36,241 bases of DNA from Betaproteobacteria bacterium (GTDB lineage: Bacteria; Pseudomonadota; Gammaproteobacteria; Burkholderiales; Burkholderiaceae_C), in the NCBI GenBank assembly GCA_009919175.1, contig RGCL01000024.1, positions 1 to 36,241 of the forward strand. The letters are read 5' to 3'. The translations under genes were made by a program, and so were the position numbers. This document shows positions 6,235 to 10,474 of the stretch, piece by piece (the stretch's first letter is position 1; each line of letters starts with the position of its first letter). Below the pieces are notes generated by a model, which was given only the letters and a program-made list of their open reading frames with translations, did no database searches and had not been told where the DNA came from.

Positions 6235-7071
6235 ATGACCACCTATCGCAAAAGAATTTCATGGCCAGACATGCTTGACGCGCTCAGCGGGGCGACCCGC
6301 ATCCATTTCATCGTGGGCGACCCCATTGCCCAGGTCAAATCCCCTTGGGGCATGACCCAGGCCTTTGAAGCCCAGGGGCGCAACGCCGTGTGCATCCCCG
6401 CCCATGTCCGGCCCCAAGCGTTGACCCAGTGGTTTGAGGGCGTGAGCACCATGCACAACCTGGACGGCCTCATCGTCACCGTGCCCCACAAGTTTTCGGC
6501 CTATGCCTTGTGTGCCTCCGCCACCGAGCGGGCTCAATTCGTTCAGGCCGCCAACACCTTGCGCCGTCGCCCCGACGGGCGCTGGCATGGCGACATGTGC
6601 GACGGCCTGGGCTATGTGCAAGCCCTCATCGAGCAAGGCGCCGACCCCAGGGGCAAGTCGGTGCTGGTGGTGGGTTCGGGTGGCGCGGGCTCGGCCATTG
6701 CGCATGCGGTGGTGGTGGCGGGCGCGCGTCACGTGCACATTCACGATGCCGATGTGCGCCGCCGTGATGCGCTCATCGCCCGCTTGCAAAGCCTCGCGCC
6801 AGATCGCGTGAGCGCGGGCAAGCCCCAGGCGATGGGGCATGACATCCTCATCAACGCCACGCCCACGGGCATGCAAGCCCACGACCCGCTGCCCCTGGAC
6901 CTCACCGGCCTCAGGCCGCAGCAGACCGTGGGGTGTGTCATCACCTCGCCTGCGGTGACCCCGCTGATCGCCCGCGCCAGGGAGCAGGGTTGTCCCACCG
7001 TGACAGGCGCTGACATGTTTGGCAAAGTGCGCGAGGCCATGGTGGCTTTTTTACTGGAGACCGCGGCATGA
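6235..7071 (+). CDS. Shikimate/quinate dehydrogenase-like protein (AroE family)
   Basis: This 278-residue NAD(P)-dependent oxidoreductase has the AroE fold. Visible are the substrate-site segment FIVGDPIAQVKSP, catalytic Lys86 in TVPHKFS, catalytic Asp123 in GDMCDGLGY, the nucleotide loop GSGGAGSAIA at 147-156, NATPTGM, and a C-terminal GADMFGKVREAM where biosynthetic enzymes usually have GxxMLxxQ. The usual NTD motif is replaced by CDG, which favours a catabolic or substrate-shifted paralogue over the biosynthetic enzyme. No Shine-Dalgarno precedes the ATG at 6235. The in-frame ATG at 6271 (MLDALSGATRIHF) would give a family-typical N-terminus and is a real alternative start. The stop overlaps the next gene by 4 nt (ATGA), indicating translational coupling to the second flavoprotein. 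Confidence 0.85.
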   Translation: MTTYRKRISWPDMLDALSGATRIHFIVGDPIAQVKSPWGMTQAFEAQGRNAVCIPAHVRPQALTQWFEGVSTMHNLDGLIVTVPHKFSAYALCASATERAQFVQAANTLRRRPDGRWHGDMCDGLGYVQALIEQGADPRGKSVLVVGSGGAGSAIAHAVVVAGARHVHIHDADVRRRDALIARLQSLAPDRVSAGKPQAMGHDILINATPTGMQAHDPLPLDLTGLRPQQTVGCVITSPAVTPLIARAREQGCPTVTGADMFGKVREAMVAFLLETAA

Positions 7072-8789
7072 AGGTGTTGCGCAATGGCCCTGAGGGTCTG
7101 GCATCGGAATACGACGTGGTGATCGTGGGCGCTGGCGGCGCGGGTTTGTCGGCCGCCCTCTTTGCGGCGCTCGAGGGCGCTTCGGTGCTGATCGTCGAGC
7201 GCACCTCGCATGTGGGCGGCACCACCGCCTGGTCGGCGGGGACGAGTTGGGTGCCCGGCAATCCGCACAGCGCCAAGGTCAACCCCAGCGACACGCTGGA
7301 GGCTGCCCGCACCTACCTCAACACCGTGGTGGGATCCCGCTCCGATGCTGCAGTGCGCGAGGCCTTTCTTGCCCATGGCCAAGAAGCCGTCTCCCGCCTG
7401 GAGCGCGACACCCACGTCCACTACCGCCCCTACCCCAAACATCCCGACTATGAATCCGACCAGCCCGGTGCCGTGCTGGCAGGGCGGGCCATCGAGCCCT
7501 TGCCCTTTGATGCGCGGGTGCTGGGAGAGCACATGGACTTGGTGCGCGAGCCCATTCCCGAGTTCACGGTGCTGGGCGGCATGATGGTGGACCGCACCGA
7601 CATCAACCACTTGCTGGGCATGCGCCACAGTTGGGCTTCGTTGCGCCATGCTGTGCGCATCCTCTTGCGCCATGCCTGGGATCGGTTGCGCCATCCGCGC
7701 GGCACGCGCTGGGTCATGGGCAATGCTTTGGTGGGGCGCTTGCTGCATTCGCTCATGTCCCATGCGCGGGTGACCCTGGTCTTGCAGACCGAGGTGACGG
7801 GCTTGCAGGCGCTCGCTCAGGGACCGGCGCACCAGTTGCACCTGCGCGGCGTGGAGGGTGGGGCTGAGCTCAGTGTGCGCGCCAGCAAGGCGGTGATGAC
7901 AGCCACGGGCGGCTTTAACCGCCACCCCCTGCGGCGGCACCGCCTCTTGGGTGAGTTGCCCCTGGATTGGTGTCCCGGTGCGCCCGGCCACACCGGGGCT
8001 TTTCACGATGTGTTCGAGTCCACTGGCGCAAGCTATGGGCAAGGCGCGGCCTCGCATGCGTTTTGGGCACCGGTGTCCCTGCGCGACCGAGCCGATGGCA
8101 CGCAGGCCGTGTTCCCACACTTTGTGATGGACCGTGCCAAGCCTGGCACCCTGGTTGTCGATGGGGAGGGTCACCGCTTTCTCAATGAAAGCATGTCCTA
8201 TCACCGCTTTGGCCTGGCCATGCGGGCTGCGCAGAAAGACCGACCCAGCATCCCGGCGTTTTTGCTGGCCGATGCGCGCGCCATCAAGGCCTATGGCCTG
8301 GGCATGGTGCGCCCTGGGGGTCATGGGCTGCAAGCGTTCATCGATGACGATTACCTGATCCAGGCGCACAGCCTGGACGACTTGGCGCGACAACTGCAAA
8401 TGGATCCGAACGTCTTGCGCAACACGGTGCGCCAGTTCAATGCCCATGCCGTGGCGGGGCATGACCCGGACTTTCACCGGGGCGAGACGGCCTACCAGCA
8501 AAACCTGGGCGATGCCAGCTGGAGCGGCCCCAACCCGTGCCTGGGCGAACTGGCGCAAGCGCCGTTTTATGCCGTGCGCCTGTATCCGGGCGACATCGGG
8601 GCGGCCACTGGGTGGTCCACCAATGCCCACGCGCAAGTGCTGGGTGCAGATCGCCAGCCGCTGGCGGGCTTGTATGCGCTGGGCAATGACATGCAGTCCA
8701 TCATGGGTGGGGTGTATCCTGCGCCGGGCATCACGCTTGGGCCGGGCATGGTGTTCGCCCATCTGGCCGTGCGACACGCCTTGGCTTGA
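7068..8789 (+). CDS. KSTD-like FAD-dependent dehydrogenase (second paralogue)
   Basis: This 573-residue flavoprotein is of the same family as the 2944-5334 gene. It has the Rossmann VGAGGAGLSAA at 20-30, GGTTAWSAGTSWVPGN near 51-66, a GMVRPGG segment, and a C-terminal GLYALGNDMQSIMGGVYPAPGITLGPG FAD-binding stretch. It lacks the NIPSNAP module. The family performs alpha-beta desaturation beside a keto group on steroid or cyclohexanone-type rings. It is translationally coupled to the shikimate-dehydrogenase-like gene upstream. Two such desaturases under one regulator would suit two consecutive ring-desaturation steps. The substrate is not identifiable from sequence. Confidence 0.85.
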   Translation: MKVLRNGPEGLASEYDVVIVGAGGAGLSAALFAALEGASVLIVERTSHVGGTTAWSAGTSWVPGNPHSAKVNPSDTLEAARTYLNTVVGSRSDAAVREAFLAHGQEAVSRLERDTHVHYRPYPKHPDYESDQPGAVLAGRAIEPLPFDARVLGEHMDLVREPIPEFTVLGGMMVDRTDINHLLGMRHSWASLRHAVRILLRHAWDRLRHPRGTRWVMGNALVGRLLHSLMSHARVTLVLQTEVTGLQALAQGPAHQLHLRGVEGGAELSVRASKAVMTATGGFNRHPLRRHRLLGELPLDWCPGAPGHTGAFHDVFESTGASYGQGAASHAFWAPVSLRDRADGTQAVFPHFVMDRAKPGTLVVDGEGHRFLNESMSYHRFGLAMRAAQKDRPSIPAFLLADARAIKAYGLGMVRPGGHGLQAFIDDDYLIQAHSLDDLARQLQMDPNVLRNTVRQFNAHAVAGHDPDFHRGETAYQQNLGDASWSGPNPCLGELAQAPFYAVRLYPGDIGAATGWSTNAHAQVLGADRQPLAGLYALGNDMQSIMGGVYPAPGITLGPGMVFAHLAVRHALA

Positions 8790-8872: not shown

Positions 8873-10474
8873 ATGAACACGCCACACCCCCATTCGCAGT
8901 CACGGGGACGCTGGGTCGACCATGCGCATCGCCTGCTGTTTGACCCCCATGCCCGACATGGGTACGCCCAAACCTTTGAGAACCTCATCGCCTGGGTCAT
9001 CATCTTCAGCATGGTGGCCATCTTCGCCGAGCATGTCGAGGCGATTGAACTCGCGCATGCCGATTTCCTGCAAGGCTTTGACCGGGTCTGCGTGACCATC
9101 TTCACGGTGGAATACCTGCTGCGCGTGTGGGTGGCGCCGCTCGATCCCAGGTATCACGGCAAGTCCTTTGCCCGGCTGCGCTATATGGCCAGCCCCTATG
9201 CGCTCATCGATTTCATTGCCATCTTTCCGTTCTACCTCACGGCGCTGGTCGGGGTGGACTTGGCCAGCTTGCAGCTGCTGCGAATGGTTCGTCTGCTGCG
9301 CATCCTCAAGCTCACCCGCAATGTGGTGCCGGCCTGGCGCGAGTTCCAGGCGCTCAACCAGGGGCGCACGTTTCGCGCCAAGCTCTACGCCCTGATGGAG
9401 CCCACGGGGCATTCGGGCCAGCTGCGCGTCTATGTGGACAACTTCATCGTGTTCTGGGTGCTGCTCTCCATCGTTTGCGTGGTGCTCGAGTCGGTGCAAT
9501 CGGTGCACAACATCTTGTCGCTGCAGTTCATCCTGATCGACACCGTGGCGTTTGGGGTCTTCACGGTGGAGTATTTGATTCGCCTCTACATCGCACCTGA
9601 AAACCCGCGCTTCAAGCGTGCTTTTGCGCCGCACGGGGCCTATGTGTTGAGCCCCCAGGCGTTGATCGACCTGCTCGCCATCCTGCCCTTTTTGCTCGAA
9701 ACCATCTGGCCCAATCAGGTGGACTTGCGCTTCTTGCGCGTGTTCCGGCTCGCGCGCTTGCTCAAGCTCACCCGATACACCACGGCCACGGTCACGCTCT
9801 ACAAGGTGTTGCGACGCGAGTGGCAGGTGATCTTTGCTTCGGTGTTCATCATGCTCTTGCTCATTGTGCTGGCCGCCAGCCTGGGCTATTTGCTCGAGCA
9901 TGAATCCCAGCCCGACAAGTTCGAAAACATCCCGCAAGCCATTTATTGGGCGGTCATCACCCTGGCCTCGGTGGGCTATGGCGACATCTCGCCCGTGACC
10001 CCTTGGGGGCGCACGCTCACGGTGGTGTTGTCGCTGGTGGGGGTGGGCATCTTTGCCATTCCTGCGGGCTTGCTGGCGTCGGCCTTCACCGACCAGTTGC
10101 GCATCGACCGTGACGAATTCAAGCGCCAGTTGCTCGAAGACCTGCAAGCCGGTGACAACCTGCCCACGCGCAAAGCCGCGATCGCCGAAGAAGCCGAGCG
10201 CTTGCACTTGTCCCCCGAGGACATTGCGCGCCTGCAAAAAGAGGCGCAGGAGGAATTTGAGGAGCGCCAGCGCGAGCAAGGGCTCTCTGGTCTGGTGATC
10301 CTGGATCCTCAGCACCACCCTGAACTGGTGGCCATGCAGGCCTCGGTGTTGTGCCATCAATTGAGTCTGCTGGCCGAGCACATCGATCCCCAAGTCCTGC
10401 GCGAACGCAAGACGGGTGCATCGGTTTTACATCCCCGGCTCGATGAGGTGATGACGGTCTTGAAGCGCCCTTGA
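8873..10474 (+). CDS. Voltage-gated potassium-channel-like protein with two voltage-sensor domains and one pore
   Basis: This is a 533-residue membrane protein. Sensor 1 has S1 about 37-56, S2 66-88 (FTVEYLLR, Glu80), S3 108-126 (ALIDFIAIFPF, Asp113) and S4 132-150 with R137, R140, R143, K146 and R149 at every third position. Sensor 2 repeats this at a ~153-residue offset: S1 188-207, S2 219-241 (FTVEYLIR, Glu233), S3 260-277 (ALIDLLAILPF, Asp266) and S4 283-301 with R286, R289, R292, R295, K298 and R301. One pore follows: S5 about 315-340, pore helix and potassium filter TLASVGYGD (363-371), and S6 about 381-405. A charged, probably coiled-coil tail (about 410-470) and a 60-residue C-terminal region complete it. 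Ordinary bacterial Kv channels have one sensor per pore. The gene stands alone, with 83 bp before it and 66 bp before pyrC. Confidence 0.88.
   Translation: MNTPHPHSQSRGRWVDHAHRLLFDPHARHGYAQTFENLIAWVIIFSMVAIFAEHVEAIELAHADFLQGFDRVCVTIFTVEYLLRVWVAPLDPRYHGKSFARLRYMASPYALIDFIAIFPFYLTALVGVDLASLQLLRMVRLLRILKLTRNVVPAWREFQALNQGRTFRAKLYALMEPTGHSGQLRVYVDNFIVFWVLLSIVCVVLESVQSVHNILSLQFILIDTVAFGVFTVEYLIRLYIAPENPRFKRAFAPHGAYVLSPQALIDLLAILPFLLETIWPNQVDLRFLRVFRLARLLKLTRYTTATVTLYKVLRREWQVIFASVFIMLLLIVLAASLGYLLEHESQPDKFENIPQAIYWAVITLASVGYGDISPVTPWGRTLTVVLSLVGVGIFAIPAGLLASAFTDQLRIDRDEFKRQLLEDLQAGDNLPTRKAAIAEEAERLHLSPEDIARLQKEAQEEFEERQREQGLSGLVILDPQHHPELVAMQASVLCHQLSLLAEHIDPQVLRERKTGASVLHPRLDEVMTVLKRP

Follow-up and report, generated by a model that had tools for sequence, protein, structure and literature searches.

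Potassium channels with two tandem voltage-sensor domains before a single pore in Burkholderiales

Voltage-gated channels, to our knowledge, have one sensor per pore unit. A gene in a 36,241-nucleotide stretch of DNA from a Betaproteobacteria bacterium (contig RGCL01000024.1; the whole stretch is referred to as the window) raised the question whether two complete voltage-sensor domains (VSDs) can precede one potassium pore and, if so, what role the first of them has.

Architecture of the window channel

The stop-free reading frame at positions 8873-10474 (forward strand, as are all features of this gene) encodes a VSD-VSD-pore potassium channel of 533 amino acids, which belongs to clade A of the family described below. 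A sequence-only reading of this DNA had proposed two tandem S1-S4 sensors and a single pore with the filter TLASVGYGD, and both Pfam and the sequence bore this out. In the full protein, Pfam Ion_trans matched in two stretches (the second at residues 187-407) and Ion_trans_2 in one (residues 326-406). The first 178 residues alone matched Ion_trans far beyond chance (E 1.3e-17; score 64.3 bits, cut-off 25); the matched part of the 241-position profile, 2-111, is its sensor half.

VSD1 (S1-S4, residues 31-158; 8963-9346) was recognized by Pfam Ion_trans, AlphaFold2, and Foldseek, the latter through VSDs of Kv, KCNQ, and NavAb channels. It is followed by a linker (residues 159-183, EFQALNQGRTFRAKLYALMEP; 9347-9421) and by VSD2 (S1-S4, residues 184-310; 9422-9802), which was delimited by Pfam, AlphaFold2, and an alignment of 75 double-sensor proteins. 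The S4-S5 linker, S5, pore loop, and S6 (residues 311-412; 9803-10108; Ion_trans_2, E 1.8e-17) contain the K+ selectivity filter TLASVGYGD (residues 363-371; 9959-9985), whose GYGD was present in all 72 sequences that reach the filter. The remainder (residues 413-533; 10109-10471) is a cytoplasmic C-terminus, helical in the AlphaFold2 model, and a profile search of this part returned no family above cut-off. The protein is thus predicted to have 10 membrane segments, arranged as S1-S4, S1-S4, S5-P-S6. It shows the charged-S4 VSD followed by S5-P-S6 and the T-V/L-x-x-GYGD filter that characterize the Kv superfamily, but has two VSDs per pore unit where that superfamily has one.

Equivalent S2 motifs are found at residues 77-84 (FTVEYLLR, with the charge-transfer residues Phe77, Glu80, and Arg84; 9101-9124) and 230-237 (FTVEYLIR), and the S3 aspartates are residues 113 and 266. 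The spacing of about 153 residues noted earlier is therefore exactly 153 for both pairs. Across a 129-residue alignment (E 1e-21), the two sensors share 35% of their residues. S4 of VSD2 (residues 286-301; 9728-9775) has six charges (R286, R289, R292, R295, K298, and R301). In S4 of VSD1 (residues 134-149; 9272-9319) the count is five (R137, R140, R143, K146, and R149), since the first position, where Arg was expected, is Gln134. The S2 glutamate, S3 aspartate, and five or six S4 charges previously ascribed to the two sensors were accordingly all found.

Structure prediction returned a VSD for the first region, as the sequence-only reading had supposed. Modeled alone (AlphaFold2, 23 sequences), VSD1 formed four long helices with a pLDDT of 85.4 and a pTM of 0.74. 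A Foldseek search of this model against the PDB listed KCNQ1, Kv4.3, KCNQ4, Kv4.2, and NavAb, with TM-scores by query length of 0.52-0.69 among the best 50 of 225 matches and E ≤ 0.001 in only 3 of the 225; the VSD1 sequence profile matched Kv4.2 at E 1.7e-13 among PDB sequences. The full-length monomer, predicted from an alignment of 24 double-sensor proteins, had a mean pLDDT of 77.3 and a pTM of 0.64, and its top structural match was Kv4.3 (E 2.1e-7). In ten-residue blocks, pLDDT was 72-93 in VSD1 (residues 31-160), 69-96 in VSD2 (residues 181-310), and down to 40 in the pore, where a monomer model may well score poorly; nor does the model give a reliable docking position for VSD1. Since the number of membrane segments contributed by VSD1 is even, S1 of VSD2 would lie on the same side of the membrane as in Kv channels.

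The VSD2-pore half resembles Kv channels (best PDB matches Kv4.3, Kv4.2, Kv2.1, and KCNQ2) in its S1-S6 order, charged S4, and TVGYGD-type filter. Compared with these, a complete VSD is added in front and no match to a T1 domain was obtained. Prokaryotic single-sensor Kv proteins, annotated 'ion transporter', align with VSD2, the pore, and the C-terminal helix (query residues from about 150-233 to 413-495) and are without VSD1. The nearest named model, NCBIfam K_channel_Meth (NF040645), scored 53 bits, well under its cut-off of 300. Two-pore channels (TPCs) also hold two VSDs in one chain, in the order VSD-pore-VSD-pore. In contrast to TPCs, a single pore (one Ion_trans_2 stretch) follows the two VSDs here, and the two VSD-pore repeats are absent. 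Bacterial sodium channels (BacNav; NavMs and NavAb) match in VSD fold, and a BacNav gene adjoins some clade A loci; they are nevertheless different proteins, with one VSD and the Na+ filter TLESW instead of TLASVGYGD. Pairwise working of VSDs is described for the dimeric Hv1 proton channel (PMC4568520). Hv1 and other VSD-only proteins are without a pore domain, whereas here both VSDs share one chain with a K+ pore. In the literature searched, which took in few subscription journals and preprints, no channel was found in which a single pore follows two VSDs. The double-sensor architecture thus appears to be a novel design for a voltage-gated channel.

Conservation of both sensors

A search for homologues, as the sequence-only reading had envisaged, yielded 80 non-redundant double-sensor ORFs from Burkholderiales, some of them cut or broken, and one plasmid protein of Gemmobacter aquarius. 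Conservation was counted over 75 aligned non-redundant doubles. In VSD1, the S2 Phe, Glu, and Arg were kept in 74, 74, and 75 and the S3 Asp in 75, with Arg or Lys at the six S4 positions in 73, 74, 75, 74, 75, and 75 sequences. The corresponding numbers for VSD2 were 74, 75, 75, and 75, and 75 at the first five S4 positions; at the sixth, 74 sequences had Arg and one Lys, the value for this position being recorded as 74 of 75. The expectation that homologues would retain the S4-1 charges was thereby confirmed at each of the six positions.

Purifying selection acts on both sensors. Pooled Nei-Gojobori dN/dS, calculated from the 18 close pairs in range out of 2346, which share sequences and are non-independent, was 0.051 for VSD1, 0.056 for VSD2, 0.020 for the pore, and 0.084 for the C-terminus. 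Mean pairwise identity among the 69 uncut doubles was 0.52 in VSD1, 0.57 in VSD2, 0.77 in the S4-S5 linker and pore, and 0.32 in the C-terminus. That VSD1 could be a passive, functionless leftover of a recent duplication is suggested by one protein (L041) with a degenerate VSD1 that has lost several key residues, and by the single-sensor type C relatives, which are without VSD1. The near-complete retention of charges, a dN/dS like that of VSD2, and the old split between clades A and B (see below) speak against such decay, which was rejected for most of the family; conservation leaves this reading scarcely credible.

The earlier suggestion that VSD1 forms a permeation path of its own, either an Hv1-like proton channel or an omega current, draws on the ability of VSDs to conduct and on Gln134 at the first S4 position of the window protein; in Shaker, loss of the first S4 Arg gives omega currents. 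This residue is unique to the window protein among the 75 aligned doubles and marks it as an outlier. Such a path is disfavored for the family because the first S4-1 position is Arg in 73 of 75 doubles. Moreover, the acidic residues in S1 of the window VSD1, by reading, lie only near its ends (E36 and E53), whereas S1 of Hv1 is acidic in mid-segment, and no Hv1 entry occurred among the best 60 of 110 PDB matches to the VSD1 profile. A conducting VSD1 was therefore considered improbable.

Occurrence and history of the family

The genome from which the window derives contains a second double-sensor gene, of clade B, at 50% identity. By hand count, 53 of 61 genomes of its genus had a match spanning both sensors, defined as starting at residue 47 or earlier and ending at residue 361 or later. 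The other eight had type C only (G210 and G229), partial matches (G254 and G251), single-sensor channels only (G241 and G257), or no match (G221 and G228). Among 200 genomes sampled from the family, intact doubles occurred only in three of the same genus, and in one genome of another genus (G177) the double-sensor gene lies in two frames. Sampling of 300 genomes of the order added one double-bearing genome (G468, family f18). At a threshold of E 1e-45, at which divergent doubles could be missed, 369 genomes of the class held no double besides the window's own and 398 genomes of the phylum held one more (G1250). In the genus of the latter, doubles were found in 18 of 121 genomes (in G1308 with two internal stops) and type C in six; many of these assemblies consist of one contig of 1.9-2.2 Mb.

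A scan of GTDB contigs gave 66 loci, whose doubles were labeled Comamonadaceae, Oxalobacteraceae, Burkholderiaceae, Limnohabitans, Burkholderiales, and, in one case, Methylococcaceae; most are taken to be from fresh water, since lakes are named in several records. On one IMG/VR contig, a clade B-like gene is truncated where the contig ends. A plasmid search identified a double-sensor gene (NZ_CP028919.1, L249:5884-7359) in Gemmobacter aquarius HYN0069, from fresh water in Korea. Its product (WP_159082572.1, 491 aa, annotated 'ion transporter') shared 39% identity with the window protein over 408 residues across both sensors and has lost several S4 charges in both; its first 179 residues alone matched Ion_trans at E 2.6e-8. 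The recurrence of the VSD-VSD-pore order across many independent assemblies, several of them of one contig, led us to reject an assembly artefact, a risk that the sequence-only reading had raised. Further long frames (L160, L161, L057, L014, L178, L185, and L250-L257) contained no second VSD and were not accepted as independent doubles: their upstream stretch is poorly hydrophobic or Arg/Pro-rich and thus looks like read-through of upstream DNA, with one extra hydrophobic stretch far upstream in L254. Plasmid matches in Natrinema and Natronosalvus were likewise discarded, as their wide query cover arose from the double matching of a single VSD, with records spanning 768-852 bases.

All VSD1s formed one clade (100/99, two trees). 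The division into clades A and B was repeated in VSD2, and its presence in both trees indicates that the split is old. In the VSD2-pore tree, single-sensor types C and C2 fell among the doubles. A single clade of doubles was rejected (p-AU 0.0064, or 0.0054 without L221), and B plus C as a single clade was not (p 0.153); the placement of type C varied by tree, being outside the doubles in two and beside clade B in another. The N-terminus of type C channels (L146-L155, L213, L215, and L217-L220) corresponds to the VSD1-VSD2 linker of the doubles, which makes them natural candidates for loss of the first sensor. From these sequence comparisons, VSD1 was probably gained once and later lost in single-sensor relatives; alternatively, one or two gains by recombination could have taken the place of the losses. 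As to its source, the grouping of VSD1 with VSD2 and type C had support of only 87/91, and the alternative placement beside other, unrelated single-sensor channels survived the AU test (p-AU 0.53), so that VSD1 may have arisen by the internal duplication proposed earlier or by fusion.

Gene neighborhood, candidate partner protein, and proposed role of the first sensor

Among the loci of the 80 ORFs (some cut) with at least 400 bases upstream, 48 of 54 clade B genes are directly preceded on the same strand, often with a one-base overlap, by a gene for a protein of 170-300 residues. Four Cys and a single hydrophobic helix are common to 50 of 50 sequences of this protein (for example L224:8619-9176, reverse strand; also before clade B genes in L212, L214, L216, L225, L157, L159, L156, L162, and others). 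In contrast, such a gene lies directly upstream in 0 of 25 clade A loci (Fisher 3e-15, over loci related to one another) and directly before none of the single-sensor channels in the loci retrieved. It had no match in Pfam or NCBIfam (both at E 0.01), and its profile reached a best E of 0.15 against the PDB. An N-inside orientation had been expected from charge, but Lys/Arg were more numerous on the N-terminal side of the helix in only 12 of 50 sequences, and the cysteine domain may lie on either side of the membrane. Within the genus of the window, the four-Cys gene was present in 49 of 61 genomes: in G221 and in all but five of the 53 genomes that have a double. We infer that this undescribed protein is a candidate auxiliary subunit of clade B channels.

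This association speaks in favor of VSD1 being chiefly a docking or assembly module, its fold kept to bind a partner (the one-helix protein, neighboring single-sensor Kv subunits, or a BacNav channel) and not to sense voltage for the pore. Further points are the four-Cys gene in only 2 of 300 genomes of the order, both with a clade B double, and channel arrays in which single-sensor genes stand back to back. However, clade A keeps its S4-1 charges without the partner, and docking alone leaves the joint retention of six S4 charges, S2 Glu, and S3 Asp unexplained. We regard a purely docking role as possible but rather doubtful, although VSD conservation as such could also reflect docking or packing.

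The reading that we prefer, with a probability of roughly 0.6, is that of a K+-selective, voltage-gated six-transmembrane (Kv) channel in which the second complete, N-terminal VSD is a working allosteric sensor, VSD2 gates, and clade B operates with the partner. Four subunits would form one pore, surrounded, by analogy with Kv tetramers, by eight sensors. As in Kv channels, VSD2 would drive the gate via the S4-S5 linker that follows it. VSD1, held on the conserved 25-residue linker, would also move in the field and, as an allosteric second sensor, shift or steepen the opening that VSD2 sets. Joint action with the upstream one-helix four-Cys protein is probable for clade B, and clade A, including the window channel, would act without it. 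Gln134 in the window protein counts against this reading, and VSD1 is not always needed, given the degenerate VSD1 of L041, the fewer S4 charges of the Gemmobacter protein, and type C channels without VSD1.

In 5 of 25 clade A loci (L023, L094, L095, L157, and L159), the start of the channel gene overlaps a BacNav stop codon, forming a Na+/K+ channel pair (BacNav genes at L159:7861-8673, L157:5766-6623, and L023:4189-5001). The BacNav protein has the filter TLESW and matched PDB 5hvx (E 2.9e-71; 'Ion transport protein' according to the depositors), which we take to be NavMs. Of the 61 genomes in the window's genus, 32 have BacNav; in G250, two BacNav genes flank a divergent double on the same strand (L238:9552-12639). 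Arrays of two doubles, two or three single-sensor genes, a BacNav gene, and the four-Cys gene within 9 kb were found at L157:4177-13019 and L159:2777-10262. For genome G184, the tally over 9 kb is two double-sensor and three single-sensor genes, one BacNav gene, and the four-Cys gene. A DUF4337 gene (E 7.2e-46) lies inside one array (L159:7221-7790).

More tentatively, the two sensors of each subunit may be independent, respond over different voltages, and control a single pore together, helped in clade B by a dedicated, previously undescribed auxiliary subunit; in some genomes, the channel behind a Na+ channel and beside single-sensor K+ channels might then constitute an excitable-signaling cassette. 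A natural two-sensor family, with relatives that seem to have lost the extra sensor, bears on the number of sensors that a single pore can employ, on the coupling between sensors, and on the modular addition of gating charge. Whether bacteria use Na+ and K+ channels together becomes directly testable through the candidate auxiliary protein and through the link to BacNav seen in some genomes.

No BacNav gene directly precedes the channel at the window locus, and none was found in the window's genome. The neighbors there are a FAD-binding enzyme gene upstream and an amidohydrolase (Pfam) gene downstream, presumably pyrC; they were not common to the clade A loci inspected and, therefore, no conclusion was drawn from them. 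Upstream of the channel, at 6235-8789, a shikimate dehydrogenase-like gene overlaps the FAD_binding_2 enzyme gene.
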